Position numbers and translations under genes: made by a program
Notes under the pieces: generated by a model
The model's input: only the letters and a program-made list of their open reading frames with translations
What the model was told of the DNA's origin: nothing
Databases searched by the model: none
Shown: piece after piece, positions 28,267 through 46,894 of the stretch
Layout: each line of letters opens with the position of its first letter
Numbering within the stretch: position 1 is the stretch's first letter
Source: an uncultured Pirellulaceae bacterium
Lineage (GTDB): Bacteria; Planctomycetota; Planctomycetia; Pirellulales; Pirellulaceae
Length of the DNA stretch: 64,000 bases
NCBI GenBank assembly: GCA_937928215.1
Contig: CALFWL010000016.1
Location: 1 to 64,000 of the forward strand
Reading direction: 5' to 3'

Positions 28267-29289
28267 ATGACGAAGATCGGCATCATCGGAGTTGGCTATT
28301 GGGGGCCCAACCTTGTAAGAAACTTTGAGAGTCTACCCAACTGCGAGGTCGTCGCGATTTGCGATCTTGATCCGGCCAATATCGACAACATTACGAAACG
28401 GTATCCTCGTGTCAACGATTACGACAATATCGATGCAATGTTCGGTCAGGAAGATCTTGACGCGGTCGTTATCGCAACACCGACCGCCACGCATCACGGT
28501 TTAGCCAAGCGGGCGCTCGAGGCAGGCCTGCATGTCTTCGTTGAAAAACCATTGACCGTGACCTCCGAACAAAGTCAGGAACTGATCGATATCGCAGCCG
28601 CGAAGGGCTTGATCGTCTTTGTTGGCCACATCTTCCTACATTCCGCCCCGGTGCAAAAACTTCGCGAGTTGATCGCGTCGGGAGAACTTGGCGAGATCAG
28701 CTACATCAGTTGCCGACGTCTGAACTTAGGCCCAGTTCGCAGCGACGTCAGCGCGCTTTATGATCTCGCCACACACGATATTTCGATCGTGCTACACCTG
28801 TTGGGGCAGCAACCTGTCGATGTCAACTGCCAGGGTCTTGATTACATCAAGGACAACGTTCACGATGTCGTTAATCTGACGATGAAATTCCCGAACAACA
28901 AAATGGGAATGATTCACTGCAGTTGGCTTGACCCGCGAAAAGAGCGTGTGATCACCGTCGTTGGCGATCAGAAAATGGCTGTCTACGACGACTTGGGCGA
29001 AGAAAAAATTCGCATCTACGACAAAGGCGTCAATCTGCACTCAAAATCCGGCGAGCTGGCTGAGTTCAAGCTTTCTTATCGACATGGCGACATGTACAGC
29101 CCTTGGTTTAAGCAAGGTGAACCACTTAAAACGGAGTGCTCTGAATTCGTTCGTTGCATCATTGAAGGGGACACGCCTCGCACGGACGGAGTTAACGGAT
29201 TGCAGGTCGTCGAAGTCTTGGAAGCTGCCAACGAATCGCTGCTGAACAATGGCTGTTCGATCTCGATCGACTCGAAAATTGTGGTGTGA
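28267..29289 (+). CDS. Gfo/Idh/MocA oxidoreductase, WlbA/WbpB-like
   Basis: 340 residues. Rossmann motif GIIGVGYWG (Gly8, Gly10, Gly13), the FVEKPL motif (Lys94) and THDISIVLHLL, as in UDP-N-acetylglucosaminuronate 3-dehydrogenases. Followed by an acetyltransferase and a DegT aminotransferase in the exact order known for WlbA-B-C, it probably oxidises the 3-position of UDP-GlcNAcA. The first enzyme of that route, UDP-GlcNAc 6-dehydrogenase, is not in the window. An AT-rich 84-bp leader precedes it. Confidence 0.85.
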   Translation: MTKIGIIGVGYWGPNLVRNFESLPNCEVVAICDLDPANIDNITKRYPRVNDYDNIDAMFGQEDLDAVVIATPTATHHGLAKRALEAGLHVFVEKPLTVTSEQSQELIDIAAAKGLIVFVGHIFLHSAPVQKLRELIASGELGEISYISCRRLNLGPVRSDVSALYDLATHDISIVLHLLGQQPVDVNCQGLDYIKDNVHDVVNLTMKFPNNKMGMIHCSWLDPRKERVITVVGDQKMAVYDDLGEEKIRIYDKGVNLHSKSGELAEFKLSYRHGDMYSPWFKQGEPLKTECSEFVRCIIEGDTPRTDGVNGLQVVEVLEAANESLLNNGCSISIDSKIVV

Positions 29290-29309
29290 ACCGTGGCCAA
29301 TGTAAGGCT

Positions 29310-29334
29310 TGGTCATCGCGCTGAGCGATGACCA
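29310..29334. other. Perfect 10-bp hairpin between the first two wlb-like genes
   Basis: TGGTCATCGC (29310-29319), loop GCTGA, GCGATGACCA (29325-29334). No T-run follows, so it is more likely an mRNA stability or processing structure than a terminator. Confidence 0.5.
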
Positions 29335-29406
29335 GTGCGGTGCCCGCCAAGGACCGTTCGACCTTTCCTCAGCTTTCTGCCAGCAACCAGCTTACCAATT
29401 ACTAAA

Positions 29407-29970
29407 ATGTTTCACCCAACTTCACTTGTCGAAACCGATCAAATTGGCGAAGGCACAATGATTTTCGCGTTTACCCACGTCATGCACGGCGCGAAAATTG
29501 GCTGCAACGTTAAGCTATGCGACCATGTTTTTGTCGAATCGGGCGCGGTGATTGGCGACAACGTGACCATCAAGAACAACGTTTCTGTCTGGGAAGGCGT
29601 CAATATTTCCGACGACGTTTTCGTTGGGCCCAACACGTGTTTTACAAACGACATGTCGCCTCGTTCACCCCGAATGGAGTCGGCCAAGATTCGTTATTCG
29701 AAAAAAGAGAACTGGCTGTTGGAAACCAAACTCAAACGCGGCGTCTCGATCGGTGGCAATGCCACGATTGTGCCTGGCGTCACCATCGGCGAATTTGCTT
29801 TTGTTGGAGCCGGTGCAGTGGTCACCAAAGACGTTGAGCCTTACACATTGGTGACGGGCAATCCCGCCAGACCCAAATCTTCGGTTTGCTCATGCGGACA
29901 AGTCTTGTCCGGCTCTCACCGCGAAACGACATGTCAGCACTGCGGTGAATCTCCGCAAGATCGCAACTGA
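29407..29970 (+). CDS. Left-handed beta-helix N-acetyltransferase, WlbB/WbpD-like
   Basis: 187 residues of hexapeptide repeats (for example IGEGTMIFAFTHVMHGAKIGCNVKLCDHVFVE, GDNVTIKNNVSVWEGV). It should acetylate the 3-amino group of the UDP-uronic acid intermediate using acetyl-CoA. The C-terminus after the NPARP turn carries four Cys (CSC ... CQHC), a likely zinc ribbon. The ATG at 29407 is used; the open frame reaches back to 29335 but reads through the intergenic hairpin. It lies between the oxidoreductase and the aminotransferase of the same pathway. Confidence 0.87.
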   Translation: MFHPTSLVETDQIGEGTMIFAFTHVMHGAKIGCNVKLCDHVFVESGAVIGDNVTIKNNVSVWEGVNISDDVFVGPNTCFTNDMSPRSPRMESAKIRYSKKENWLLETKLKRGVSIGGNATIVPGVTIGEFAFVGAGAVVTKDVEPYTLVTGNPARPKSSVCSCGQVLSGSHRETTCQHCGESPQDRN

Positions 29971-30000
29971 AACAGTAACAACTTCAACAGATCAACAATG

Positions 30001-30055
30001 TCACGCGAACGGCCTGTCGCGTGAACCGGCGTTCTTGCCGGCGCGAGAATTCTCG
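30001..30055. other. Three successive palindromes between wlbB-like and wlbC-like genes
   Basis: Hairpin 1: TCACGCGA/TCGCGTGA (30001-30024, 8-base loop). Hairpin 2: CCGGC/GCCGG (30026-30041). Palindrome 3: CGAGAATTCTCG (30044-30055). They occupy 55 of the 141 intergenic bases. Likely mRNA processing or stability elements, or remains of small repeats. Confidence 0.5.
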
Positions 30056-30111
30056 TCAGTGTCTCAGGCTCCCCTCCTCCGTTGAAACCATTGAACACGA
30101 AAGAAAACGTA

Positions 30112-31254
30112 ATGAACGCTCCTCATTTCAAGAATATTCCTTTGGTCGACCTGCAGGCTCAATCACGATCTATTCGCGACGAGGTCTTGGCGGGCATGGC
30201 CGAAGTTGTCGATTCGTGCGCGTTTATCCTCGGGCCTCAAGTCAAAGAGTTTGAAACGCAATTCGCTGAGTATTGCCAAACAGATCACTGTGTCGGACTT
30301 GCGAACGGAACCGAAGCCCTCCACATGGCGCTTCGAGCTCTCGACATCGGGCCGGGCGACGAGGTTATCACGGCGGGGAACTCGTTTGCTGCCACTGCGT
30401 TCGCGATCGCCTATGTCGGAGCCAAAGCCGTTTTTGTTGACATTGATGCGGACGATTACAACATGGACGTGACGCTGATTGAACAAGCGATCAGCGAAAA
30501 AACCAAAGCGATCATTCCCGTACATCTGTATGGCCAGCCTGCTCGTATGAATGAGATTATGGAAATCGCGAGGCGTCATGACTTGCGAGTGGTTGAGGAT
30601 GCTGCTCAGGCGCACGGTGCTGAAATCGACGGCAAGCGGACTGGATCGTTCGGCGACATCGGTTGTTTCAGTTTTTATCCGGGCAAAAACCTTGGCGCTT
30701 ACGGCGACGGTGGGGCGTGCGTCACCAACGATCCCGCGTTGGCAGAAAGACTTCAGCTGCTGCGAAACTATGGTCAAAAGGTTAAAAACCGACACGATGA
30801 GTTGGCTTACAACTGTCGCCTTGACACGATGCAAGCCGCGGTCTTGCTGGTCAAGATGAAATACATTGAGCAATGGACGGACCAGCGAATTCAAGTCGCT
30901 GCATGGTATCGCGAGGCTTTGCAAGACATTGGCGTCACGCTCCCAACGCAACATGAAAACATGCGTCACGTGTATCACTTGTTTATCGTACGGCATTCAC
31001 AGCGTGACGAGATTCTTCGCAAGCTTGCCGAGAAGAATGTCTTTGGTGGCGTGCACTATCCGCACCCGCTGTCTGACGCGCAGCCTTTCCGCGACGCACC
31101 TTGTTTTCCGATGGGCCTGCCATTGGCCAACAAGTACGCCAACGAGATCCTGTCGCTTCCGATGTATCCGGAGATGACTCAGGCACAGGTCAAGTGGGTC
31201 GCCCAGAAACTGGCGATTGCTGTCGAAGAAGTCGCCAGTTTAGAAACCGTTTAG
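30112..31254 (+). CDS. DegT/DnrJ/EryC1-family sugar aminotransferase, WlbC/WbpE-like
   Basis: 380 residues. PLP enzyme. Schiff-base Lys192 lies in CFSFYPGKNLGAYGDGGA, with Asp163 in VVEDAAQAHGA holding the pyridine nitrogen. The N-terminus PLVDLQAQ and the substrate segment LANGTEALHMALRAL are typical. It probably aminates the 3-keto sugar produced by the WlbA-like enzyme, giving the precursor of a 2,3-diacetamido-2,3-dideoxy-uronic acid. The start ATG at 30112 gives the standard N-terminus. A repeat element follows 12 bp after the stop codon. Confidence 0.9.
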   Translation: MNAPHFKNIPLVDLQAQSRSIRDEVLAGMAEVVDSCAFILGPQVKEFETQFAEYCQTDHCVGLANGTEALHMALRALDIGPGDEVITAGNSFAATAFAIAYVGAKAVFVDIDADDYNMDVTLIEQAISEKTKAIIPVHLYGQPARMNEIMEIARRHDLRVVEDAAQAHGAEIDGKRTGSFGDIGCFSFYPGKNLGAYGDGGACVTNDPALAERLQLLRNYGQKVKNRHDELAYNCRLDTMQAAVLLVKMKYIEQWTDQRIQVAAWYREALQDIGVTLPTQHENMRHVYHLFIVRHSQRDEILRKLAEKNVFGGVHYPHPLSDAQPFRDAPCFPMGLPLANKYANEILSLPMYPEMTQAQVKWVAQKLAIAVEEVASLETV

Positions 31255-31265
31255 TCACGATCGAG

Positions 31266-31365
31266 TAAGGCCTTGCCCAACAATAACTGTCAGATTTCAT
31301 TTCGCTCGCGTAAAATCGGCGTTGAATCGTGTTCAGCCGGCGACTTATTGATTCGCGAGTGCTAA
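31266..31365. repeat. Near-palindromic element, copy 4 (subfamily B)
   Basis: About 100 bp in the minus sense relative to copy 5 at 59068. On the minus strand it reads TTAGCACTCGCG at one end and GGGCAAGGCCTTA at the other. The two copies differ at only about 8 of 94 positions with one gap. It lies in the gap between the aminotransferase and polymerase genes; the TAG stop of the former is 11 bases outside it. Confidence 0.75.
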
Positions 31366-31421
31366 ACCGCTGTCTCCCGTTAACCAATCTGGAATATGCT
31401 CCATCTTTTCGTACGTTTGTT

Positions 31422-32819
31422 ATGTCCACGCTAGAAATCAAAAACAGATTGCCGCTGGGGTCAACCAGCCTCGGCGCGAGTTCCATCGGCGATCGTGGTT
31501 TGGATGATGCTGGACTGCAATGGTATGAAAAATGTTTGCTGGCCGTGATTTTGTTTGAGATCCCGCTTCAGCTCGATACCCTTTTGCTGTACAGCGATTG
31601 GGACGGCGAATTAGGAGCGATCGCGGGGCTTAATGTTTCGATCGCTACGTTTGCGATTGCGATGCTCTACGTGATCTGGCTTTTGCAATGGGCTCTAGGG
31701 GGCGCTCGATCAACTCGAGACTCGGTCATCGGCTTGCCGATGCTATTTTACATTGGCACGGTCGTGATTTCGATCTTTGCAGCTAAGGAGTCGTTTCTGG
31801 CTGTTTGCGACGTGTGGTTACTTGCACAAGCGTATTTGGTTTTTGCGTTTATCGCCAATCGAATAAGGAACGTGGCAGACATGAAGTTTGTGCTGCTGCT
31901 TTTCTGTTCCACGGTGATTTTCCAGAGTATCTTGATTTTTTTTGCCAGATCACTGTCCGATACATTGCCGCCGGGTGAGCGATTGAACTACGGCCCGCTT
32001 TCTATTGACGTTGGCGAAGCGGGACGGCCCGGGGGTACCTTGCACTCGCCTACTCTCGCGGGGAGTTATCTAGCGCTGATGTGGCTTCCCGCGCTTGGAA
32101 TGCTGTTGTCACCTGTCAAAGGTGTGTTTCGAACTGCTGCGATAGCGACCTTGCTGTTGGGCGGTATGGCGATCTTAGTGACGCAAACACGAGGCGCAAT
32201 TCTGACGACTGTCATCGGAAGTTCGATTGTCGCACTGTGTTGCATGTCGCGCGGGTGGTTTCCGACGAGAGTTTTAGTGCTTGCCGTGCTTCTGGCTGCT
32301 GCTGGATTCTTCCCCTTGATGAGTGTAATCGAGAAACGTGTTCAAGGTGACGATAGTGGATCAGCCCAGTCACGGATTCATCTTTCGCAAATTGCGTTGG
32401 AAGTCATTGAAGACAACGCATTTTTTGGCGTCGGTGCAGGAAACAGCCATCGGGCAGCATTGCGGCATGCGAACAACGGGAAGTATCGCTCGGAATGGTT
32501 TTTTACGGTTCACTGTAAGTACCTGCTGGTCTGGGCTGAAACGGGAGCACTTGGGTTGTTCGCTTTTTTGATCATGCTGGGCGCGGGGGTCAAAGACAGT
32601 CTCTCGATTTGGTTGACGCGGAATCGTTTGTTCGCACCGATTGGAATTGGGTTATCGATTGCGATCATCGGAAACATGATCCACATGATCGTGGATATTT
32701 TTAATTCTCGCCCTCAAATTCATTCGCTGTGGGCATTGTTGGGGTTGGTCGCAGCCATTCGAATGATCGCTGCCAAGGCATCGGATTCAGAAGAACTCTC
32801 GGAGTTTTCCAATGCCTAA
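31422..32819 (+). CDS. O-antigen ligase/polymerase-like (Wzy) membrane protein
   Basis: 465 residues with about ten or more membrane helices. The Wzy_C type periplasmic loop contains SRIHLSQIALEVIEDNAFFGVGAGN and, later, VHCKYLLVWAETGALGLFAFLIML (H...YL...E.G..G), the usual signature of polymerases and ligases. It would join repeat units in the periplasm. The start ATG at 31422 is preferred over 31329, which lies inside a repeat element. It overlaps the flippase gene by 8 bp. Confidence 0.85.
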   Translation: MSTLEIKNRLPLGSTSLGASSIGDRGLDDAGLQWYEKCLLAVILFEIPLQLDTLLLYSDWDGELGAIAGLNVSIATFAIAMLYVIWLLQWALGGARSTRDSVIGLPMLFYIGTVVISIFAAKESFLAVCDVWLLAQAYLVFAFIANRIRNVADMKFVLLLFCSTVIFQSILIFFARSLSDTLPPGERLNYGPLSIDVGEAGRPGGTLHSPTLAGSYLALMWLPALGMLLSPVKGVFRTAAIATLLLGGMAILVTQTRGAILTTVIGSSIVALCCMSRGWFPTRVLVLAVLLAAAGFFPLMSVIEKRVQGDDSGSAQSRIHLSQIALEVIEDNAFFGVGAGNSHRAALRHANNGKYRSEWFFTVHCKYLLVWAETGALGLFAFLIMLGAGVKDSLSIWLTRNRLFAPIGIGLSIAIIGNMIHMIVDIFNSRPQIHSLWALLGLVAAIRMIAAKASDSEELSEFSNA

Positions 32820-34275
32820 GAATCCTAGCGTCGCTGAACAGGCGACCAAAAACACCAGCTTTCTGCTGATGGGCACGGCATTTCGAATGATTGCCAACTT
32901 CGTGTTCATCGTGGTCTCTGCCGACATGCTTGGCATTGAAGGCTTCGGCGCATACTCGATTGGCCTTCACTACTTTGAGTTGTTTGCCGGCTTGGCGGGC
33001 GCTGGCATCGGTCAACTGTTGACCAACGAGATTGCCAAATGGTCGCGTCGTAGCAACCAGTTGATCTCATCGGCGATCCTTATCGGATTGCTAATGGCAC
33101 TGCTTGGTATTGTCGCCATGATCGGATTCAGCTTTGTCGGTGGATTCAAACCCTCAACGCGATTGCTGGTTCTGATCGCTTCGCTCGCCTTGGTTCCCGG
33201 CACGATTTGCATCGTGTTTGAAGGTGCGTTAATTGGCTTGCAGCGATCGGAATTCGTGGCCTTGTCAGTTACAGTCGAAAGTCTATTCCGAAGCTCGCTA
33301 AGTATTGCGGCGATCTGTCTGGGTTTTGGGATTCCCGTCCTGTTCTTGATTCTGATCGTGGGAAAGTGTCTCCAATTGTCGGTCTTTTGGTGGAGCATTC
33401 GAAAAAGCTTCCAATTCAAGTGGGCTTTCTCGCGTCGCAACTCGATCCGGATGGCAAAACGCCTGCGCGTCTACGCGGTCGAAACTTGGCTGGCCACGGT
33501 TAACGTTGGGCTCGATATTCTGATCCTCTCGATTCTGGCCGGAGAGTTCGCAGTCGGGATTTACTCAGCTGCTTGGAAAGTGATTCGAATGGGTGCAATC
33601 GTGGCTCGCGTTTACGCTCAAGCAACCTTCCCAATCCTCTCGAAACAATTCCAAAAATCACGAGCGTCATTTCATCGGATGAAACTGGCCAACATCCGCT
33701 TGATGTGCGTGCTTCCACTCCCCGTTCTCATCTGCATTTCCTATTACTCAGAGCTAATCATTAAAACGATCTATCCGTCCGGCTTGTACGCCGAGTCGGC
33801 GATTGTGCTGGCCGTACTGGCATTTTATGTGCTACAGGAGTTTCTGAATCCGTTTCTCAGTTTCTCGCTTTATGCGTCCGGACGTCAGATTCAAACCATG
33901 AAGGTTGCAGCGATCAGCCTTGTTTTTAATGCCATGACAACGTACCCGCTGGTCTTGTACTTTGGTGCGTTCGGTGCGGCGGTGGGTACTTTGATGGCAG
34001 GAACGCTGGCAACGATTTGCTATTTGTACTTTTCGCTTTCAAGAGAAGAAATCAAATGGATCGGTTTCATCTTTTTGCGTCAAACGTTTTCCTGCGCCAT
34101 CCTGCTACTGCTTTTACTATTGATGACAGATCTAAATCTATTCTTAGCGAGCGTCGCCGCCTCATTGGCTTACTATCTGGTAGCGATCGGTCTCAAGCTT
34201 GTCGGCCATGACGACTGGCAACTATTAAATGAAACCTTAATCAAGAAGTTTATCCCGAGAGGGAATGCCGTATGA
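32812..34275 (+). CDS. Polysaccharide flippase (Wzx, MATE/MOP superfamily)
   Basis: 487 residues with about twelve to fourteen membrane helices. The N-terminus SFLLMGTAFRMIANFVFIVVSADMLGIEGFGAYSIGLHY is typical of oligosaccharide flippases, with the charged loop pattern of the family. It moves undecaprenyl-linked repeat units across the inner membrane. It overlaps the polymerase by 8 bp upstream and the next glycosyltransferase by 4 bp (ATGA) downstream. Confidence 0.88.
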   Translation: MPKNPSVAEQATKNTSFLLMGTAFRMIANFVFIVVSADMLGIEGFGAYSIGLHYFELFAGLAGAGIGQLLTNEIAKWSRRSNQLISSAILIGLLMALLGIVAMIGFSFVGGFKPSTRLLVLIASLALVPGTICIVFEGALIGLQRSEFVALSVTVESLFRSSLSIAAICLGFGIPVLFLILIVGKCLQLSVFWWSIRKSFQFKWAFSRRNSIRMAKRLRVYAVETWLATVNVGLDILILSILAGEFAVGIYSAAWKVIRMGAIVARVYAQATFPILSKQFQKSRASFHRMKLANIRLMCVLPLPVLICISYYSELIIKTIYPSGLYAESAIVLAVLAFYVLQEFLNPFLSFSLYASGRQIQTMKVAAISLVFNAMTTYPLVLYFGAFGAAVGTLMAGTLATICYLYFSLSREEIKWIGFIFLRQTFSCAILLLLLLLMTDLNLFLASVAASLAYYLVAIGLKLVGHDDWQLLNETLIKKFIPRGNAV

Positions 34276-35438
34276 AAATTGCATGGATTAGTTACGACCA
34301 TTTCGAATACAGCGCCCTGCACATCAACGCGATGAACAAAGAGCACCAGGTTCTCGCCGTACTTCCAAAACCAGAAGATGACCATGGCGAGGAGATTCAT
34401 TTAGATGATGATGTTCTGCGTTTTTTGTTTGAAAACCCTCGTTTGCGTCAGCCGCTGAAGCAGTATCGCTCGATCTGCTCCATCCTCAACGCGTTGACGC
34501 AATTCAAGCCGGATGTTGTCCACTTGCAGCAAGGGCATTTGTGGTTGAATTTTTCATTGGACAAAATCAGACAGCTCTGCCCTTTGGTGATCACCGTTCA
34601 TGATCCCCGTCCTCACTCGGGCGACAAGATGACCAAGAAAACGCCGCAATGGGTGATCGATTATGGATTCCGTCAAGCCGATCATTTGATTGTTCATGGC
34701 AAAAAGCTGGTTGATACGGTCTGCCAGATATCCGGGGTGAGCTCCAATCGAGTTCATGTGATTCCTCACGTTGCCATGGGCAATATGACCAATCAAGGAA
34801 ACATTGATCATCGGCTTACCGATCCAAACACGATTCTGTTTTTTGGGCGCATCTGGGATTACAAAGGATTGAAATATTTAATCGAAGCTGAGCCGATCAT
34901 TTCCGCCAGTTGCCCGGATGTCAAAATCATTATCGCTGGACAAGGTGACGATTTCGGAAAGTACCGCAGGCTGATCAAGAATTCCGATCGGTACATTATT
35001 GATAACGACTGGATTACCGATCAAAAACGAAGCGACTATTTTTCGCAAGCCGGTGTTGTCGTACTCCCATACACCGACGCAACGCAAAGCGGCGTTGTGC
35101 CGGTTGCTTACAACTTTGGCAAGCCCGTAATTGCTTCGGATGTCGGCGCCTTGTCCGACTGTGTATTCAACGGAAAGACCGGGCTTCTGGTTCCACCCAA
35201 GAATCCCCAGGAACTCGCACACGCGATCATTCGATTGCTGAAGGACCCATTGCTGGCAAGGAGAATGGGACATGAAGGCCGCAATTGGGTCGAAGGTGAA
35301 TGTTCTCCCAAAGCGGTGGCAAAAAAGCACGTCGAGGCATACAAAAAAACGGTAATTTATCGAGCCTGCAAGCTTGGCTTGGCGTTCGATGTCCCTCCTC
35401 AAATTGCAGATTCGCAAACTCATCTGACAAAAAACTGA
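34272..35438 (+). CDS. Glycosyltransferase family 4
   Basis: 388 residues, GT-B fold. The C-terminal domain reads LFFGRIWDYKGLKYLIEAEPII ... VKIIIAGQGDD, then VVLPYTDATQSGVVPVAYNFGKPVIASDVGAL. In this subfamily the first Glu of the E-x7-E motif is absent and the A-T-Q-S-G-V pattern stands instead, as in known variants. The N-terminal domain (MKIAWISYDHFEYSALHINAMN) is the acceptor side. The sugar cannot be predicted. It begins with an ATGA overlap with the flippase stop. Confidence 0.88.
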   Translation: MKIAWISYDHFEYSALHINAMNKEHQVLAVLPKPEDDHGEEIHLDDDVLRFLFENPRLRQPLKQYRSICSILNALTQFKPDVVHLQQGHLWLNFSLDKIRQLCPLVITVHDPRPHSGDKMTKKTPQWVIDYGFRQADHLIVHGKKLVDTVCQISGVSSNRVHVIPHVAMGNMTNQGNIDHRLTDPNTILFFGRIWDYKGLKYLIEAEPIISASCPDVKIIIAGQGDDFGKYRRLIKNSDRYIIDNDWITDQKRSDYFSQAGVVVLPYTDATQSGVVPVAYNFGKPVIASDVGALSDCVFNGKTGLLVPPKNPQELAHAIIRLLKDPLLARRMGHEGRNWVEGECSPKAVAKKHVEAYKKTVIYRACKLGLAFDVPPQIADSQTHLTKN

Positions 35439-35441
35439 TTC

Positions 35442-36650
35442 ATGCGCAGCGCGAAATCACATCTGAACGTTCTCATGCTCGGCGAGTCTCTCGATCGACA
35501 AGGGGGGATCGTTACGTTGCAAAAGGTGCTGATAGAACACCTGCCTGAAAATGTATCCGTGCATCACATTGCAACGGTCGGATTGGGCGGCAAGTTTAAC
35601 AAGTTATTAGTGTATGCGATGTGTCTTGTGCGTTTGCTTTGGCGCCTCGTTACGGCACGTGTGGATATCGTGCACCTGCATGTTTCGCTGGAAGCCAGTT
35701 TTTATCGACAGTGTGTAGTTGCAATAGCGTGTTATGTTTTTGGGAAGCCGGTAATAATTCATGCTCATGCGGGCGAGTTTCCCGCTTTTTTCCAAAGAAT
35801 GGGGACGGGCAGCAAGTGGCTCTGCCGAGTCGTGTACACTCGCGCCTTTCGGCTGATCTTGCTAACCAAGGCGTGGCAATCGTTTTATGAGCAGGAGCTT
35901 GGAATCGGACCGGAACGACTTGCCGTTTTACCGAATCCGGTGGCATTGCCTGTGCTAAACAGTTGGAGCAGCGACCATCAATCGCCATGTGTTTTCGTTC
36001 ACATTGGCCTGATGGACCCAGACAAAGGCACTTTTGATCTGATCGACGCTGTGGCAGCGCTCCCTGAGCACATTCGCTCCGCTCAAATCCAGCTCGTTAT
36101 TGCTGGCAATGGAATGATCGACGAAGTCAAAGAGATGGTCTGTAAACTGGGCCTCGCAAACTGCATCAAGGTTGGCGGCTGGATGACTGCGACTGAACGT
36201 GATGAACTCTTGTCGAAATCCGATGTGCTTGTTCTGCCTTCATATTTTGAGGGCATGCCCATGGCGATTCTTGAAGCAATGAGTTGGTCGCTTCCCGTTT
36301 TGACAACTCCAGTCGGTGGCATTCCCGATCTGATCGTTGATCATGAGCATGGACTGCTGATCGAACCCGGCAATGTTCAGCAATTGTCGCAAGCGATCGT
36401 GGAACTGATTCAATCGCCGGAATTGCGAAATCGGCTTGGCCACAATGCTCGAAAACGAATGGAAAGCAATTGTCCGGAAAAGTACTCAAGACAACTGATC
36501 CGTATCTACCAAGGCCAGCCACTAAAGACGACTCATAACGACACAGTTTTAAGTGACGCCTCAAATTTGTCCGCTGATGATGTGCCAGTCCTCGCCCGTT
36601 CCCAGAAAGGCGAAACCAATGCGAATTGGAATTCTAATCGGACAGTTTGA
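35442..36650 (+). CDS. Glycosyltransferase family 4
   Basis: 402 residues, GT-B fold. A retained E-x7-E motif is visible in VLVLPSYFEGMPMAILEAMSWSLPVLTTPVGG. The N-terminal glycine-rich loop has LGESLDRQGGIVTL and the C-terminal domain starts VFVHIGLMDPDKGTFDLIDA. A retaining glycosyltransferase for a nucleotide-sugar donor. The C-terminal 40 residues are Ser/Asn-rich and extend beyond the fold. The downstream gene starts 32 bp inside it, so the two are coupled. Confidence 0.9.
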   Translation: MRSAKSHLNVLMLGESLDRQGGIVTLQKVLIEHLPENVSVHHIATVGLGGKFNKLLVYAMCLVRLLWRLVTARVDIVHLHVSLEASFYRQCVVAIACYVFGKPVIIHAHAGEFPAFFQRMGTGSKWLCRVVYTRAFRLILLTKAWQSFYEQELGIGPERLAVLPNPVALPVLNSWSSDHQSPCVFVHIGLMDPDKGTFDLIDAVAALPEHIRSAQIQLVIAGNGMIDEVKEMVCKLGLANCIKVGGWMTATERDELLSKSDVLVLPSYFEGMPMAILEAMSWSLPVLTTPVGGIPDLIVDHEHGLLIEPGNVQQLSQAIVELIQSPELRNRLGHNARKRMESNCPEKYSRQLIRIYQGQPLKTTHNDTVLSDASNLSADDVPVLARSQKGETNANWNSNRTV

Positions 36651-38268
36651 AGGTTTGAGCAACTGGGAATTGCGTCTTATCCAAACGATAATCGACACGC
36701 CCGGTTGGGAAATTTGCTTGTTGATGACCGATGGCAGGAACGACAACAAGGGTCTGCCCGGTTTTCAGCACAAGCTCAAGCGGATGTTTCAGTCTGGAAA
36801 TGTGCTTGGCCGGATCTTGTTTAAGATTCAATGTGTTTTTGAAAGTAAGTTCTTTCCCGAGAAGCAGACGGTCGACAGAGCCGCGATCATCGATCACCTA
36901 AGCAAGATCGACCGGATCGAGCTTACCCCCAAGCGCAAAGGGTACCTCGATATCTTCGGAAAAAACGATGGACAGTCGGTCAAAGCTTATGACTTGGACG
37001 TGATCCTGCGACATGAATTCAACATCATACGCGGCAGCATTTTGGATGCAGCCAAACATGGGATCTGGTCATTCCACCACGCCGATAACGCGATCAATCG
37101 AGGGAGTCCAGCCTGTTTTTGGGAGATCGTTCTAAAGCAACCCGTGGTCGGTGTAACGCTGCAAAAATTGACGCCCGAACTGGACGGCGGACTTGTCATC
37201 GATAAGGCGTTTTTTGATGTCCATTGGTCCCACATCGCAACCAACCATGAGGTCATGGAGGCCTCCGTCAACTTGCTGATAAAAAATCTGAGAAAACTGG
37301 ACTCCAATCGAGTTACCTTCAGTAAATCTCCGGTCTACTTCAACCCACTGTACCGAACGCCCGACTTCAAAAACCTCGTCCGTTACTGCACGGGCTTTTA
37401 CTTCAATGTTATCTGCAGGGTTGTCATGGCATGGAAGGCCAAGTTCCTAGGTACCCGGTATGGGTGCTGGACGCTTTTTATTGGCAAAGGAAATTTTCTG
37501 GAGTCTACCCTCTTCCGATTGAAACCTGTTGCGATGCCAAAAGGAGAGTTCTGGGCCGATCCGTTTGTTTTTGAATACCGTGATGAAAAGTATGTGTTTT
37601 TCGAGAATTATTCTTATTCAACAGGTCGAGGAAAAATCTCCTGTGGGAAGATCGAGAAGGATCAATTGGTTGACGTGGTTGATGTTCTGACGACGGATTA
37701 CCACCTCTCTTACCCATTCGTTTTCGAAGAAGATGGCGAAATTTACCTGATGCCAGAAGCTGCCGAAAACAATCGCTTGGAAATTCATCGATGTACTCGC
37801 TTTCCGGATAAATGGGAATTGTTCACGACCGCGTTTGAGGGTGAACGAATTGTCGATGCTACTTTTCACGATGATCAGAACGGTCAAAAGTGGCTCTTCC
37901 TCAACAAGATGATTGATTCAACAGATTCTGTCGCTGAGTTGTACGTTTACCAGGTTGATTCCATTGAGGTGAACAATCCCGTGCCGCACCAAGACAACCC
38001 GGTTCTGATTGACAGCAAAGTTGCCAGAGGTGCCGGGCCTACCTTTCAGTACGAAGGTCAGACTTATCGACCTTCTCAACGCAACTCAGACGGGATTTAT
38101 GGCCGAGCGCTCAATGTCAACAAAATCACAAAGCTAAACCTCCATGAATACGAAGAGGAAACGATTGTGACGGCTTATCCCGATTTTTTACCGGGACTGA
38201 TGGGAATGCATCATCTCCATCAGGCGGACGACATGTTTGTGATCGATGCTGCCTTCAAAAAGAGATAG
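36619..38268 (+). CDS. Formyltransferase-like domain fused to a beta-propeller glycosyltransferase-like domain
   Basis: 549 residues in two parts. Residues about 120-200 resemble the formyl_transferase fold: SFHHADNAINRGSPACFWEI ... VGVTLQKLTPELDGGLVIDK. The catalytic His (153) and Asp (189) are present, but the Asn of the usual N-x-H-P motif seems to be Ser151. Residues about 300-549 look like the propeller N-domain of plant glucosamine inositolphosphorylceramide transferase (GEFWADPFVFEYRDEKYVFFENY, YPFVFEEDGEIYLMPE). It probably N-formylates or transfers an amino sugar in the glycan. I chose the ATG at 36619; the frame opens at 36553 but the product of the upstream gene fits better there. 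Function is an inference. Confidence 0.8.
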   Translation: MRIGILIGQFEGLSNWELRLIQTIIDTPGWEICLLMTDGRNDNKGLPGFQHKLKRMFQSGNVLGRILFKIQCVFESKFFPEKQTVDRAAIIDHLSKIDRIELTPKRKGYLDIFGKNDGQSVKAYDLDVILRHEFNIIRGSILDAAKHGIWSFHHADNAINRGSPACFWEIVLKQPVVGVTLQKLTPELDGGLVIDKAFFDVHWSHIATNHEVMEASVNLLIKNLRKLDSNRVTFSKSPVYFNPLYRTPDFKNLVRYCTGFYFNVICRVVMAWKAKFLGTRYGCWTLFIGKGNFLESTLFRLKPVAMPKGEFWADPFVFEYRDEKYVFFENYSYSTGRGKISCGKIEKDQLVDVVDVLTTDYHLSYPFVFEEDGEIYLMPEAAENNRLEIHRCTRFPDKWELFTTAFEGERIVDATFHDDQNGQKWLFLNKMIDSTDSVAELYVYQVDSIEVNNPVPHQDNPVLIDSKVARGAGPTFQYEGQTYRPSQRNSDGIYGRALNVNKITKLNLHEYEEETIVTAYPDFLPGLMGMHHLHQADDMFVIDAAFKKR

Positions 38269-39264: not shown

Positions 39265-41181
39265 ATGTGCGGCATCGCTGGAATCCTGAATCTTGACCAG
39301 CGCAAACCGGCGGCCCCGGCTTTGCTTACGGGGATGCTGCGCCGGATTATCCACCGTGGCCCAGACGATGAAGGGATGTTGGTCGATGGTGAGTTGACGA
39401 TGGGGATGCGCAGGCTGAGCATCATCGATCTCGCTGACGGAAAGCAACCCATTCAAAACGAAGATGGACGTTTCTCGGTCATTCTCAATGGCGAGATTTA
39501 TAACTACATCGAACTGCGTCGCGACCTAGAATCACGTGGTCACAAATTCCGCACCAACAGTGACACCGAAGTTATCGTGCATCTGTTTGAGGAACACGGA
39601 ACGGAATGTGTTCATCACCTGCGCGGTATGTTTGGCTTCGCTGTGTGGGATCATCAGAAGCACGAGCTGTTCATCTTTCGGGATCGTCTGGGCATCAAGC
39701 CGCTTTATTATTCGCTGCAAGATAATACCCTCGCGTTTGGTTCCGAGATTAAATCGCTATTGGCGTTACCCTGGATCAATCCGACGATCGACTACGCAGC
39801 ACTCAACGAGTTCCTTTCTCTCAAGTACGTTCCAGCACCACGAACACTTTTTCAGGGCATTGCTTCGTTGCCGTCGGGCCACATGATTTCCGTCCGGCAA
39901 GGAACAGTCGAAGTCAAAAAGTATTGGGATATTTCCTTTGCTGAGAAACTGGATTTCGTCAGCGAAGCCGATGCGGTTGACCAGTTGCTCGAAAAATTGC
40001 GAGAGGCCGTGCGGTTGCGTTTACGTTCGGACGTTCCTTTCGGTGCGTTTTTGAGCGGTGGATTGGATTCCAGTGTGATTGTGGCTTTGATGTCCGAGCA
40101 GATGGACATGCCTGTCAATACGTTTTCGGCTGGATTCTCCGGATCCGACGGGCAAGACGAACTTCCTTACGCGAGACAGGTCGCTGAAACGTTTGGCTGC
40201 AATCATCACGAGGTGCTTGTCGGAGCGAAAGAGTTTTTGGAACATGCCGATCAAGTAATGTGGCATCTGGAAATGCCGATCGCCGACCAAGCTACCGTCG
40301 CGACTCACATGGTGGCAGCACTTGCTCGCAAGCACGTAAAAATGGTTCTGACGGGTGAAGGTGGCGACGAGCTGTTCGCCGGATACGCGCGCTACGTTGG
40401 TGAAACTCATGCCTCCAAGTTCGGCTGGCTACCGGGATCGCTGTCAGCAATGATCCGGGGCAGTGCCAAACGCTTGCCCGGATTGAGACGCCAAAAAATC
40501 GCCCTGCACGCGCTGCTGCAAAACGGTGAAGCGGCTCGTTTTTCAAATTGGTTTCCGTTGTTCAATGGAGACGCCAAACGTCAGGTTGTTGCTGAGCGTT
40601 TTAAGTCGGCTTCAACCAACGTGGTGGCTTCTTTTGAACAATACCTTAACCAGTGTGACGCGCAATCGCCAGTTGAGCGGATGCTGTATGTTGATTCCAA
40701 AACGTGGCTTCCCGATTACTTGCTGCTTCGCGGCGACAAGCTGACGATGGCCAATTCGATTGAAGGCCGCGTGCCGTTGCTGGATCACGAGGTGGTTGAG
40801 TTCGCTGCGAAGCTTCCTGCGAAATGGAAGCTCAATGGATCGACACGGAAGTACCTGCTGAAAAAAGTCGCAGCCAAGCTTCTTCCCGACGAAATCATCA
40901 ACCGAAAAAAGCAGGGCTTCCCAATCCCGATCGAACGGTGGCTCAAAGCAGAAGCTAACGAAATGATGCGCGACCTGCTTTCAACGGATACGCTAAACCG
41001 ACGCGAGCTGTTCGATCCAAAAGTCGTTTCCAGGTTGATGCAGCGCCACGAAAGTGGATACGCCGATTATTCGACCGAACTTTGGGGGTTGATGAGTATT
41101 GAAATCTGGCAACGTCAGTTTATTGACGCTGATCACAGCCAGTCGCAACCGAACGTGGCCGAAGTTGTCACCACGCGCTGA
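39265..41181 (+). CDS. asnB: AsnB-type glutamine-dependent amidotransferase
   Basis: 638 residues. N-terminal glutaminase domain with nucleophile Cys2 (MCGIAGI) and the RRLSIID loop. The C-terminal synthetase domain carries the PP-loop SGGLDSS (264-270) and LTGEGGDELFAGY. Such proteins make asparagine or amidate other carboxylates. In Pseudomonas O-antigen loci the related WbpS amidates uronic acids. Here the neighbours make a uronic acid, so glycan amidation is a good alternative to asparagine synthesis. A 263-bp gap upstream may hold its own promoter, though I found no clear one. Confidence 0.9.
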   Translation: MCGIAGILNLDQRKPAAPALLTGMLRRIIHRGPDDEGMLVDGELTMGMRRLSIIDLADGKQPIQNEDGRFSVILNGEIYNYIELRRDLESRGHKFRTNSDTEVIVHLFEEHGTECVHHLRGMFGFAVWDHQKHELFIFRDRLGIKPLYYSLQDNTLAFGSEIKSLLALPWINPTIDYAALNEFLSLKYVPAPRTLFQGIASLPSGHMISVRQGTVEVKKYWDISFAEKLDFVSEADAVDQLLEKLREAVRLRLRSDVPFGAFLSGGLDSSVIVALMSEQMDMPVNTFSAGFSGSDGQDELPYARQVAETFGCNHHEVLVGAKEFLEHADQVMWHLEMPIADQATVATHMVAALARKHVKMVLTGEGGDELFAGYARYVGETHASKFGWLPGSLSAMIRGSAKRLPGLRRQKIALHALLQNGEAARFSNWFPLFNGDAKRQVVAERFKSASTNVVASFEQYLNQCDAQSPVERMLYVDSKTWLPDYLLLRGDKLTMANSIEGRVPLLDHEVVEFAAKLPAKWKLNGSTRKYLLKKVAAKLLPDEIINRKKQGFPIPIERWLKAEANEMMRDLLSTDTLNRRELFDPKVVSRLMQRHESGYADYSTELWGLMSIEIWQRQFIDADHSQSQPNVAEVVTTR

Positions 41182-41208
41182 TGAGTTTGTTGTTAAAGGG
41201 AGGATCGT

Positions 41209-42060
41209 ATGTCTACTGCTGAAATTGATGACGTTGAAGTCGAATCTCACGAAATCGATGTCGTTGATGTACTGACTGCAGCCGAGTTTCGGTCGAACTA
41301 CATCAATCGTAAAAAACCCGTCAAGATAACGGGAATGATGCAGTCGTGGCCCGCGATGCACAAATGGAGCTTCGAATTCTTCAGCCAATTGAACGCCGAG
41401 TCCGCAGTTCACTTGGAAGAAGGCAATGTGATGCAGTCGGAGACTCAGTTTCGCAAGTCGAACTTTCAGGAGTTTGTGAACGGCTTGATCGCAGGTGACG
41501 CTCAAGGGTATCTCTCCGTGTTTCGAATCTTCGACTTCTTTCCTCAACTTCGAGAAGACGTTGACTTTTCAATTCTTGATCAGTTCAAGACAAAATCATC
41601 AACATCAGGTTGGCTTGGCCCCAAGGGTACGGTCACGGGTTACCACATTGATTGGGGGGATAACATTTTGGCTCAGGTTGTCGGTCGCAAGTGTCTGCAT
41701 CTGGCCGCCCCCGAGGAGACTCCCAACATGTACGTTAGCCGAAAGTTTGATCAGGGAACGACGATTAGTGATGTTGACCTTGAAAATGTCGACGAAGGAA
41801 GGTTTCCTCGATTTTCGAACGTCAGGCACCAGCGTGTGATTCTGCATCCGGGTGAAATGATTTTTATTCCACGTGGCTGGTGGCATCATGTGCGGTCGCT
41901 CGATGCGTCGGTAAGCGTCAGCAACATTGGGTACGACCTGAAGAGCATTGTGCGCGATCTCGTACCCCATCGTGCGAAACAGATTTTGCATGATGCCGGA
42001 TTTTGGAAATGTGATTGCACCTGCCATGTGATTCGCGATGGAAAGTGGATCAAAAAATAA
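41209..42060 (+). CDS. JmjC/cupin-like Fe(II)/2-oxoglutarate oxygenase-type protein
   Basis: 283 residues. The cupin_8/JmjC pattern is clear: N-terminal YINRKKPVKITGMMQSWPA, metal motif HID (His146, Asp148 in GYHIDWGDN), and distal His226 or 227 in PRGWWHHV. Such enzymes hydroxylate proteins or small molecules; the fold is also used for non-oxidative steps. The C-terminus has three Cys (WKCDCTC, 268-272). In an EPS locus this is unusual. The next gene starts within its stop codon (TAATG), so they are coupled, and the substrate may be linked to the FemAB-like acyltransferases. Confidence 0.85.
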   Translation: MSTAEIDDVEVESHEIDVVDVLTAAEFRSNYINRKKPVKITGMMQSWPAMHKWSFEFFSQLNAESAVHLEEGNVMQSETQFRKSNFQEFVNGLIAGDAQGYLSVFRIFDFFPQLREDVDFSILDQFKTKSSTSGWLGPKGTVTGYHIDWGDNILAQVVGRKCLHLAAPEETPNMYVSRKFDQGTTISDVDLENVDEGRFPRFSNVRHQRVILHPGEMIFIPRGWWHHVRSLDASVSVSNIGYDLKSIVRDLVPHRAKQILHDAGFWKCDCTCHVIRDGKWIKK

Positions 42061-43172
42061 TGAACTCATTGAAACCCACCAATGAGAAGCTGTGTGAGAG
42101 TCGAGATCGCCCTATGCCAATCAACAAAATATTTGAACTAACATCCCAGTGCGGTTGGAATGAGTACGTGCTTCAGCATCCCCAGGGATCGATCTTTCAC
42201 ACGCGGGAAATGTATCAGGTTTTTGCGAACACGCCGCGCCATGAACCTATGTTCAACGGCTATCGAGATTCCACCGGGAAAATTATTGCGATGCTGTGTG
42301 CTGTCAAGATTGACACCATTGGTGGCGCGATGTCCAGTCTGGCGTCTCGGTCCGTGATGTTTGCAGAACCAATTTGCGATGACTCCGACGAAGGCATCAT
42401 GGCATTAAAAAAACTGATCGAGCATCACGATCTGGAATGGGGTCGCAAGACTCTGTTTACCGAAATTCGTTTGCACAACGCACCAGGGGCCGAACGTATT
42501 GCCTTAGAAGGTTGCGGATACGACCACCTCGAATATTTGAACTATGTCAATGATCTTTCTGACGGGCAGCATGTACTGGCATCGAAGATCAAGAAAACGT
42601 TTCGAAAAATTCGCACAGCACGACGACGCGGAATGACTGTCGATCAGGCAAGCACGCCCGACATGCTACTGCGCGTTTATCGACAAATTCAGTCCAGTTA
42701 TTCGCGTGCCAAAGTCCCTGTAGCTCCGCTTCAGTTGTTCGAATCGGCGGTTCAGTTTTTGCCCAATGACTCGATCCAGCTTCGCGTCGGAAGCCTTGAC
42801 GGTACGGATGTCGCGTCGGCCGTTGGTCTGATATTTAAAGATCGATATTACGCTTGGTACAACGGGACGACTCGCCCTCAAGGGGTTTCGGCAACCGCTA
42901 CCGTTGTGTGGGATGAGATCGAGGCAGCGTGCCGGCTTGGGTTGACGCAATATGATTTTGGCGGTGCAGGATGGCCAGACGAGGACTTTGGCCCACGAAA
43001 ATTTAAGTCTCGATTTGGTGGTGAACTTGTATCACACGGTCGTTATCGAAAGGTTGGTTCTCCTTTGAAGCTGGCGTTGGCCAAGGGAGGTTATGGTCTG
43101 TTCCGTACGTTTCTTGCGAACAGAAGCGATCTTGAGTGTCTGAAGGTTCAACTCGCGAAAGATAGAGAATGA
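42060..43172 (+). CDS. FemAB-like acyltransferase (GNAT fold), first of a tandem pair
   Basis: 370 residues with a double-GNAT FemAB/BioF2-like layout. The N-terminal motif GSIFHTREMYQVFANTPRH and the C-terminal motif GLTQYDFGGAGWPDEDFGPRKFKSRFGGELV are shared with the next gene. In cell-wall synthesis the family adds amino acids from aminoacyl-tRNA to lipid-linked precursors; a related group is linked to exosortase/EPS systems. The substrate is unknown. It overlaps the JmjC-like gene by TAATG and the next paralogue by 4 bp. Confidence 0.85.
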   Translation: MNSLKPTNEKLCESRDRPMPINKIFELTSQCGWNEYVLQHPQGSIFHTREMYQVFANTPRHEPMFNGYRDSTGKIIAMLCAVKIDTIGGAMSSLASRSVMFAEPICDDSDEGIMALKKLIEHHDLEWGRKTLFTEIRLHNAPGAERIALEGCGYDHLEYLNYVNDLSDGQHVLASKIKKTFRKIRTARRRGMTVDQASTPDMLLRVYRQIQSSYSRAKVPVAPLQLFESAVQFLPNDSIQLRVGSLDGTDVASAVGLIFKDRYYAWYNGTTRPQGVSATATVVWDEIEAACRLGLTQYDFGGAGWPDEDFGPRKFKSRFGGELVSHGRYRKVGSPLKLALAKGGYGLFRTFLANRSDLECLKVQLAKDRE

Positions 43173-44203
43173 ACGAACCTTCCGGATATCGTTTAATCGA
43201 ACCGTCGGACAATCCGCAGCGATGGGACGCCTACGTCGATGCTCATGACAAAGGTACGGTTTTTCACACCACGAAAATGCACCGCGTGTTTGAGCAAACG
43301 CCAAAAAACTCACCGTGGTCGCGAGCGGTTATTAACGACTCGGGCGAAATCGTCGCGATGGTTTGCGCGGTTCGTGTCGAGACGTTTGCCCGCATGGCAA
43401 AGCGATTTGCATCGCGTTCAATCTGGTACTGCGAACCTATCTGTGATGATTCGATCGCAGGAGCCAACGCATTGAGGCTACTGATTCAAGAACACGATCA
43501 GCAGATGCAAAGTCAGACTCTGTTCACGGAGATTCGTCCTCATTTTCGACGCGGTAATGAAAATGCCGTTCTGACGAAGCTTGACTACGAATACAAAGAC
43601 TACTTGAACTACGTCGTCGATCTGGAAAACGATACGGAAACACTTGAGAAAAATCTGAGCAAAAGTTGTCGCAAGCAAATCCGCAAGTGCAGGCAACGCG
43701 GCGTTAGCATTCAAGTTTTGAGCACTCACGATTCCATCGACAAAATGCATGAACTGGTCAAATATAGCTACTGTCGTTCAGGCATGCCTTTAGTCGATCG
43801 ACAGATTTTTCATCATGCTTTGGACGTTTTCGGCGGATCAGTGGTCGATGTCCGTTTGGCTTGGCTATCGAGGCGCGTTGTTGCTGCCGGAATATGTTTG
43901 CGGTTTAAACGTGTTGTCTACGCGTGGTTTGGTGGTTCTTATCGAATTACGGGCCTCACCCCGTTTGCGCTTTTGACATGGGACGAAATCGAATCCGGAC
44001 ATCGCGAAGGCTTCGAACGCTATGACTTTGGTGGTGCTGGTTGGCCAGGAAAGAAATACGGTCCGCGTCACTTCAAGGCAAGTTTTGGCGGTGAGCTAGT
44101 TCACTCTGGGCGTTACCGCAAAATCAACTCGCCGCTGAAGCTGAGAGCAGCCAAACTGGCGTTTGCTTCGATCAGGGCGGTCAAAACGGCGCTCCAGCGA
44201 TGA
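43169..44203 (+). CDS. FemAB-like acyltransferase, second of a tandem pair
   Basis: 344 residues, a clear paralogue of the preceding gene. GTVFHTTKMHRVFEQTPKN and RYDFGGAGWPGKKYGPRHFKASFGGELV match it closely. It is shorter by about 26 residues, mostly at the N-terminus. The starts overlap as ATGA, so they are translated together. A pair would suit a heterodimer or two successive transfers. No aminoacyl-tRNA synthetase or ligase sits next to it except the ATP-grasp protein two genes on. Confidence 0.85.
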   Translation: MNEPSGYRLIEPSDNPQRWDAYVDAHDKGTVFHTTKMHRVFEQTPKNSPWSRAVINDSGEIVAMVCAVRVETFARMAKRFASRSIWYCEPICDDSIAGANALRLLIQEHDQQMQSQTLFTEIRPHFRRGNENAVLTKLDYEYKDYLNYVVDLENDTETLEKNLSKSCRKQIRKCRQRGVSIQVLSTHDSIDKMHELVKYSYCRSGMPLVDRQIFHHALDVFGGSVVDVRLAWLSRRVVAAGICLRFKRVVYAWFGGSYRITGLTPFALLTWDEIESGHREGFERYDFGGAGWPGKKYGPRHFKASFGGELVHSGRYRKINSPLKLRAAKLAFASIRAVKTALQR

Positions 44204-44242
44204 TCGGAATCACGCTTGAAATCCACCAGCAGCTTTGAACTC

Positions 44243-45583
44243 ATGGCGGCACCTAAACGTAAAGTCTCAATGACGAAATCCAACAAATATCGAATCTTGA
44301 TGATTCTGGAAAATGAAGGTTATCCAGAGGATTCTCGTGTACTTTTGGAAGCCATCGCGCTTCGTGAAGCAGGGCACCAAGTCACTGTGATCTGCCCCAC
44401 TTCCAAAACTTTCCGTCGCAAGTTTGAGGTGATCGACAACGTCCGGGTTTATCGCTACCCCGCTCCGTTGGAGTTCGACGGCGTGCTTGGGTATGCGTGG
44501 GAGTTTGGATACAGCTTCCTGATGGCGTGGTTTATCTCGTTTTATATTTTGGTGCGGTTCGGGTTCGATGCAATTCATATCCACATGCCGCCCGATTTGA
44601 ATGGGTTCCTCGGTGTCTTCTATCGGTTGCTGGGCAAGAAGTTTGTGATGGATCACCACGACCTGTCGCCAGAGTTGTTTTCAGCACAGGGGAAAACAAG
44701 CGGCATGCTCAAAAAACTGCTGTACTTTTTTGAAAAAACGTCCTGCCGCTGGGCTCACCGTTTGATCGCGACCAACGAATCTCAACGCGATGTCCAGATC
44801 AATCGTTGTGGAGCCTTGGCTGATCATTGCTTTATTGTTCGCAATGGTCCCGCTCAATTTTTCATGGAATCTCACTCGCCATTCGAATACGAGAATTCAA
44901 CCGGACGAAAAATCATCGGTTACGTCGGAATCATGGGTACTCAGGATGGCGTCGATGTCTTGATCCACGCCTTCGACTGTCTAAAAAACAAACTTGGACG
45001 GGACGATTTCTTGGGTGTGTTGATTGGTAACGGCCCTTCGGTCGAAGACTTAAAGCAACTGACCATTGATCTGGGTCTGACAGACAATGTGATTTTCACC
45101 GGCTTGGTCCCCTTTGCCGATGTGCCGAAGTACGTGGCCGGATTTGATATTTGCACGACTCCCGATCCAGTCAACGCCTACAACAGCAGCTGCACAACGA
45201 TCAAGACAATGGAATACATGGCGCTTTCCAAGCCAACAATTTCCTTTCGGACAGTCGAAAACCAAAAGACCGCTGGCCAATCGGCAATCTACGTCGATTC
45301 CGATTGCGACCCGACGCTGTTCGCCAAAGCAATCAAGCAACTTATGGATGCCCCTGACCAGTGCCGACGGCTTGGTGATTTTGGGCGTCAACGGATCGAG
45401 TCAGGCTTGGCGTGGGATCACCAAAAAATGGAACTCGTTCGGCTCTATCAGAGCTTTGGTTCTCCGGGCACGCTGCCCTCGGTCGACGTTTCTGATTCGG
45501 TACTTGGCAAGTTATCAAGAAGCAAAACTGATAAGACGTCGATGTCAAACAATGAAAGCTCAGAGACGGTGACCAGCCAATGA
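44243..45583 (+). CDS. Glycosyltransferase family 4
   Basis: 446 residues, GT-B fold, with HMPPDLNGFLGVFYRLLGKKFVMDHHDLSPELFS in the N-domain and CTTPDPVNAYNSSCTTIKTMEYMALSKPTISF near the C-terminal donor site. The canonical Glu of E-x7-E is in the EYMAL segment. The start is uncertain: ATG codons at 44243 and 44270 are possible, and the open frame begins with TTG at 44216; no Shine-Dalgarno sequence favours one. It overlaps the ATP-grasp gene by 4 bp (ATGA), which couples the two. Confidence 0.86.
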   Translation: MAAPKRKVSMTKSNKYRILMILENEGYPEDSRVLLEAIALREAGHQVTVICPTSKTFRRKFEVIDNVRVYRYPAPLEFDGVLGYAWEFGYSFLMAWFISFYILVRFGFDAIHIHMPPDLNGFLGVFYRLLGKKFVMDHHDLSPELFSAQGKTSGMLKKLLYFFEKTSCRWAHRLIATNESQRDVQINRCGALADHCFIVRNGPAQFFMESHSPFEYENSTGRKIIGYVGIMGTQDGVDVLIHAFDCLKNKLGRDDFLGVLIGNGPSVEDLKQLTIDLGLTDNVIFTGLVPFADVPKYVAGFDICTTPDPVNAYNSSCTTIKTMEYMALSKPTISFRTVENQKTAGQSAIYVDSDCDPTLFAKAIKQLMDAPDQCRRLGDFGRQRIESGLAWDHQKMELVRLYQSFGSPGTLPSVDVSDSVLGKLSRSKTDKTSMSNNESSETVTSQ

Positions 45584-46761: not shown

Positions 46762-46894
46762 AACGAAAGCTGGGCGATTGCTCTTTCGCACGCCCAAACC
46801 ACGGAACAAGCCGACGATCGGTTTGACTAAAAATCAAAACTTCGGATCTCAAAGATCACAGCTCAACCCAAATTAGCTCATTAACAACCAGGAA

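Follow-up and report, generated by a model that had tools for sequence, protein, structure and literature searches.

A variant formyltransferase-fold domain joined to a GINT1_N-like propeller in a bacterial EPS locus

Formyltransferases (FTs) are recognized by the signature HxSLLPxxxG, and the Asn that precedes it is crucial in Fmt, ArnA and GART (PMC4388273). Departures from this residue set have been described: the hydrolase domain of FDH carries Ile at the Asn position (PMC4388273), and HypX, a precedent for an altered FT catalytic set, keeps the His and Asp while another Asp supports the His (PMC6802093). In plants, GINT is a member of GT64, with roughly double the length of GMT, which also belongs to that family (PMC9113257). 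We analyzed a 64,000-nucleotide stretch of DNA (the window) in which a single ORF joins an FT-fold domain to a propeller of the GINT1_N family (Table 1). With most subscription papers outside their reach, our literature searches returned no description of an FT fused to a propeller or to a GINT1-like protein; no function for the bacterial propeller was found in the literature searched, and the role of the propeller in plant GINT1 was likewise undescribed there.

The window protein shares with the sugar N-formyltransferases (the N-terminal domain of ArnA, WbkC, QdtF and FdtF) the FT fold, the active-site His and Asp, the setting in a glycan locus, and the RG-x-P-x-x-W and GVTL...LD-G blocks. 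It differs in having Ser for Asn, HHADN for HxSLLP and a fused propeller, and its relatives are usually without a sugar aminotransferase nearby. Methionyl-tRNA formyltransferase (Fmt) has the same fold and gave the best profile match (4iqf), but it has another C-terminal domain and other signature residues, and it serves translation whereas the window protein lies in an EPS locus. The FDH hydrolase domain and the N-terminal domain of HypX also combine the FT fold with a changed active-site set in which His and Asp are kept, although their partner domains and their acceptors (phosphopantetheine, CoA) are different. For the second half, the closest counterpart is the N-terminal domain of plant GINT1, a propeller of the same family (PF24793) in a glycan-assembly protein, there joined to a GT64 glycosyltransferase rather than to an FT domain. 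The five-bladed propeller glycosidases of GH43, GH117 and GH159 show the same fold and weak sequence-profile kinship; however, they act in glycan breakdown, whereas the window protein has an intracellular EPS setting.

Table 1. Coordinates of the gene, its domains and motifs, its upstream neighbors in the window, and the split genes of a haloarchaeal plasmid
Feature	Coordinates	Strand	Basis or remark
Whole gene: 549-aa protein, FT-fold domain and GINT1_N-like propeller, stop codon included	36619..38268	+	ORF and translation; start common to homologues
N-terminal FT-fold domain, ~residues 1-250	36619..37368	+	Profile match to Fmt 4iqf over residues 113-237; predicted fold and Foldseek
Variant active-site motif G148-I-W-S-F-H-H-A-D-N ... 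R161 (coordinates cover residues 148-160)	37066..37104	+	Ser151 at usual Asn position; S151, H153, H154, D156, R161 and G162 invariant in 19/19 of this type
L184-T-P-E-L-D189; Asp189 is the counterpart of the FT catalytic Asp	37174..37191	+	Alignment to Fmt and ArnA; invariant in window type
Long linker helix, residues 250-277	37366..37449	+	Secondary structure of the model
C-terminal GH43-like GINT1_N propeller, ~residues 281-549	37459..38265	+	PF24793, E 3.1e-33; conservation over 84 sequences; model; GH43 profile matches
UDP-GlcNAc-3-dehydrogenase-like oxidoreductase (28267), hexapeptide acetyltransferase (29335), DegT aminotransferase (30082)	28267..31254	+	Pfam and NCBIfam; every match short of the NCBIfam equivalog cut-off
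Immediately upstream: genes for Wzy-like and Wzx-like proteins and for two GT4 glycosyltransferases	31329..36650	+	Pfam
Split genes, Haladaptatus caseinilyticus plasmid: propeller	L169:5734-6819		Architecture (e)
Split genes, Haladaptatus caseinilyticus plasmid: SYHHGD-type FT	L169:6836-7693		Architecture (e)

Fold and conserved residues of the two halves

The ATG at 36619 is preceded by AAAGGCG and is the start shared by homologues, and the 5' end of the gene overlaps the preceding GT4 gene by 32 bases; an alternative upstream start, GTG at 36553, is possible but unlikely. From a single sequence the kinship with FTs is faint. A Pfam scan of the 549-aa protein placed GINT1_N alone over its cut-off, with no match over an FT cut-off, and the NCBIfam match to ArnA stood at 7.5e-5. 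A profile built from ten relatives found Fmt 4iqf at E 2.4e-6, and a canonical FT from another genome, used as query, matched the window ORF at 2.5e-6. Two relatives (L013 and L105) exceed the Pfam Formyl_trans_N cut-off, and L105 by itself matches Fmt at 1.5e-7 and ArnA at 3e-7. AlphaFold modeling with 47 aligned sequences, plasmid-record sequences being left out, gave a mean pLDDT of 93.7 and a pTM of 0.92, versus a pLDDT of 32.8 from the single sequence alone. When the model was compared with the PDB by Foldseek, the FT-type matches were the FDH hydrolase domain (best), Fmt, ArnA, WbkC, FdtF and QdtF, with E values of 1e-9 to 1e-6 for FDH, Fmt, ArnA and WbkC. The N-terminal half is thus predicted to have the FT (Rossmann-type) fold, and the pairing of FT and propeller in this ORF is far beyond chance. 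The initial annotation had read both domains in this one ORF, which fold, profiles and Pfam bear out; the FT fold whose absence it had named as refuting was found by the fold prediction and structure search that it had proposed.

Ser151, H153, H154, D156, R161 and D189 are invariant in all 19 aligned sequences of the window type. The catalytic His and Asp of FTs are kept, H153 and D189 aligning to their counterparts in Fmt and ArnA. The Asn two residues before the His is absent, and alignment to Fmt (NVH) and ArnA (NLH) upholds the earlier placement of Ser151 at that position, a substitution found in 19/19 of the window type. The signature HxSLLPxxxG is absent as well: the window protein has HHADNAINRG, HH-x-D occurs throughout the window type, and the Ser of HxS is replaced by Ala in the window protein and by Gly or Asp in relatives. 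On its sequence, the domain could be an active FT with an altered residue set, yet it lacks both marks by which a classical FT is recognized and is better not classed as one. We set aside the idea of an ordinary sugar N-formyltransferase on the strength of these two missing signatures and of an aminotransferase neighbor that relatives usually lack.

Other variants of the FT active site came to light in passing. Gly occupies the catalytic-Asn position (GVVGYHPALLP and similar) in other FT-like proteins (L130, L132, L133, L136 and L149). In a genome of the window's phylum, the FT domain of the protein at L019:1141-2652 (+) keeps the usual Asn, though its motif reads NFHARD..FRGGG; the C-terminal stretch of the protein resembles a polysaccharide deacetylase by eye, has no Pfam match, and would couple deacetylation with formylation.

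In the C-terminal half, GINT1_N covers residues 309-516 with 115.5 bits against a cut-off of 27. Whatever the N-terminus, at least 83 of 84 sequences retain D314, E329, H362, S364, E380, D413, R470, Q487 and Y494, while R484 is retained by 78/84 and H531 by 80/84. By comparison with the predicted strands, several of these conserved polar residues lie where inner strands of the blades start, suggesting a ligand pocket in the propeller. Foldseek matched the propeller to paraoxonase, alpha-neoagarobiose hydrolase, a GH159 enzyme and a GH43 galactanase, and the propeller profile matched GH43 structures by sequence (3kst at 2.7e-8). The window protein falls under the Pfam GH43 cut-off (17.6 bits versus 32.2), which a stand-alone propeller relative (L036) exceeds at 33.8. 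The catalytic set of GH43 is Asp, Asp and Glu, with the Glu expected at a position in the fourth blade. In the window family D314 and D413 are conserved and no Glu of the acid/base set is found at the expected fourth-blade position, with the blade register relative to GH43 uncertain. A Pfam scan of the window protein gave no GT64 match, and we ruled out that the propeller is the recognized catalytic part of the plant glycosyltransferase (PMC9113257). The earlier suggestion of a "combined amino-sugar transferase and modifier" is unsupported as stated: GINT1_N is not the recognized catalytic domain of the plant enzyme, and in appearance the propeller is closer to GH43 than to any known glycosyltransferase.

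Distribution, architectures and genomic setting

Full-length relatives with 27-58% identity occur in Bacteroidota and Campylobacterota, in one alphaproteobacterium and one acidobacterium, and in a MAG carrying the label Oscillospiraceae; the homologue from Algoriphagus marinus is 58% identical to the window protein. Further full-length relatives lie on haloarchaeal plasmids. These relatives in multiple phyla rule out a combination unique to this locus. The initial annotation had seen no function assigned to the combination, which agrees with the literature searched, although the pairing is widespread and not specific to this locus. With the query genome counted in each of the four phylum samples, GINT1_N was carried by 49/297 Bacteroidota, 50/399 Pseudomonadota, 8/149 Acidobacteriota and 2/150 Bacillota genomes. 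In the window's own phylum a propeller relative was present in 7/392 genomes, its own among them, and the window protein was absent from all 24 congeneric genomes examined. The nearest copies on a quick propeller tree sit in other phyla, which makes it likely that the window gene was acquired by horizontal transfer. No relative was found in the viral contigs searched, and phage records gave one weak propeller match.

The relatives fall into five architectures: (a) the window type, an FT domain with S-x-H-H-x-D followed by the propeller; (b) an FT-like or unalignable N-terminus without H153 and/or D189, with the propeller; (c) the propeller alone, mostly from one Bacteroidota group; (d) GT4 with the propeller (L017) or the propeller with a GT28 C-terminal domain (L067); and (e) adjacent propeller and FT genes, 16 bases apart. 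We take all type (b) N-termini to derive from an FT domain, which for the most divergent ones we infer. The propeller is the constant part of these FT/propeller architectures; it occurs too in plant GINT1, a sphingolipid glycosyltransferase (GlcN(Ac)-IPC transferase) of GT64. On a plasmid of Sphingomonas paeninsulae, a propeller-only protein without an FT domain (L127:7929-8867, WP_162986867.1) is annotated "formyl transferase", a name probably carried over from fused relatives.

The EPS setting proposed for the window gene was borne out by its neighbors. The three genes at the start of the upstream stretch in Table 1 likely make up a 3-amino-sugar route, judging by their family matches, and a 3-amino sugar may be available at the locus. 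Downstream (39265-47740), the EPS locus encodes XrtA-type asparagine-synthase-like amidotransferase, Cupin_8, two FemAB/GNAT, ATP-grasp and phosphatidylserine-decarboxylase-like proteins; peptide-like or amino-acid decoration of the EPS glycan is possible. Elsewhere, the neighbors of type (a) genes and of stand-alone propellers are most often glycosyltransferases, and a window-like GT4 accompanies the gene within ~9 kb at 13/21 type (a) loci and at 19/22 loci with a stand-alone propeller. A DegT aminotransferase lies within ~9 kb in 4/21 type (a) loci (window included), 0/22 stand-alone loci and 8/13 other FT-like loci; the difference between type (a) and the FT-like control has a Fisher p of 0.025, for loci that are non-independent and a control that is not purely sugar formyltransferases. 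On two Rhizobium plasmids (L124 and L126), a decayed-FT and propeller gene lies beside NRPS/PKS, phosphopantetheinyl transferase, DegT and GMC oxidoreductase genes.

Constraint on the FT half and readings of its function

We compared the identity of the two halves over pairs with propeller identity <50%, measuring the FT over residues 100-240. In type (a), mean FT identity was 37.9% and mean propeller identity 33.0%, the FT being higher in 85% of pairs. In type (b), with its lost motif, the means were 16.0% and 35.6% and the FT was never higher. Some of this contrast is built in, because four motif residues defined the types and the (b) N-termini align poorly, but that does not account for all of it. 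Many fusions have a decayed FT active site and retain the propeller pocket residues. Types (a) and (b) are interleaved on the propeller tree, which suggests that the FT probably decayed several times, the number being approximate as this quick tree has many open forks and its root was not inferred. Since the FT half of the window group is as constrained as the propeller, it is probably functional, that is, an active variant.

We tentatively favor, with a little less than even confidence, a glycan-assembly protein whose modified FT domain transfers a one-carbon group to a sugar handled by the GH43-like propeller. On this reading, a sugar or oligosaccharide precursor would be bound or acted on in the central pocket of the propeller and would receive a formyl group at an amine from the FT domain, with 10-formyl-tetrahydrofolate the most likely donor; formyl transfer, donor and acceptor are what we infer here. 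His153 and Asp189 would work as in classical FTs. The formyl oxygen, otherwise held by Asn, would be held by Ser151, and the His would be supported by Asp156 or His154 in place of the Ser of HxSLLP. Once the modification is given up, the FT active site would decay and the propeller carry on. This proposal draws on the FT and propeller folds, the motif residues invariant among diverse sequences, an FT identity at least that of the propeller, the split genes of Haladaptatus, the glycosyltransferase neighbors, the HypX precedent and the possible 3-amino-sugar route of the window. Against it stand the missing Asn and HxSLLPxxxG and the low count of DegT loci, and the hexapeptide acetyltransferase of the window could already acylate the amino sugar. 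N-formylation by the window protein is possible, though the Asn and HxSLLP are gone and sugar aminotransferases are rarely near relatives.

In a second reading the propeller does the work and the FT-fold domain assists it without catalysis, by binding a nucleotide sugar or an acceptor, by dimerization or by delivery, the S-HH-D residues then forming a binding site. This suits a propeller that is kept where the FT site decays and that is also encoded by itself or in fusions with GT4 or GT28. The loss of two FT signatures and the rarity of aminotransferases nearby fit as well; however, His153 and Asp189, the catalytic residues common to FTs, are strictly kept in type (a), where FT constraint equals propeller constraint, and we regard a non-catalytic role as rather unlikely. 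Somewhat less probable still is that the domain uses another acceptor or reaction, namely a hydroxyl or thiol (phosphopantetheine, CoA), hydrolysis of 10-formyl-THF or a different acyl donor. The Ile-bearing FDH hydrolase domain is the best Foldseek match, FDH passes formyl to phosphopantetheine and HypX has been proposed to pass it to CoA (PMC4388273, PMC6802093), and the two Rhizobium relatives adjoin NRPS/PKS and phosphopantetheinyl transferase genes; yet type (a) loci are mainly glycan loci, and the Rhizobium copies, being of the decayed type, have little bearing on the intact one. It is very improbable that the FT half of the window copy is already non-functional, in a recently arrived gene heading toward the decayed type. 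In favor of this, the proteins of its sister group on the propeller tree (L113, L124 and L126) have decayed FT domains, and the gene is missing from the congeneric genomes. Against it, the window copy retains every motif residue, and the relatives nearest to this copy belong to the intact type.

A bolder reading is one that we consider unlikely: the GINT1_N propeller would be an unrecognized carbohydrate-active enzyme from GH43-like hydrolases, serving glycan assembly from bacteria and haloarchaea to plants, and the fused FT branch would carry out a Ser-His-Asp one-carbon transfer on the propeller-bound glycan, not on a nucleotide sugar.

Taken together, the pairing of these domains in glycan assembly is real and widespread across bacteria and salt-loving archaea. 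Among the sampled Pseudomonadota and Bacteroidota, between about an eighth and a sixth of the genomes carry the propeller, mostly in glycan loci. The Ser/HHxD branch raises the question whether the textbook Asn of FTs is dispensable, and the natural series of intact, decayed, absent and separately encoded FT makes it possible to tell apart, by simple gene removal, what each half does.
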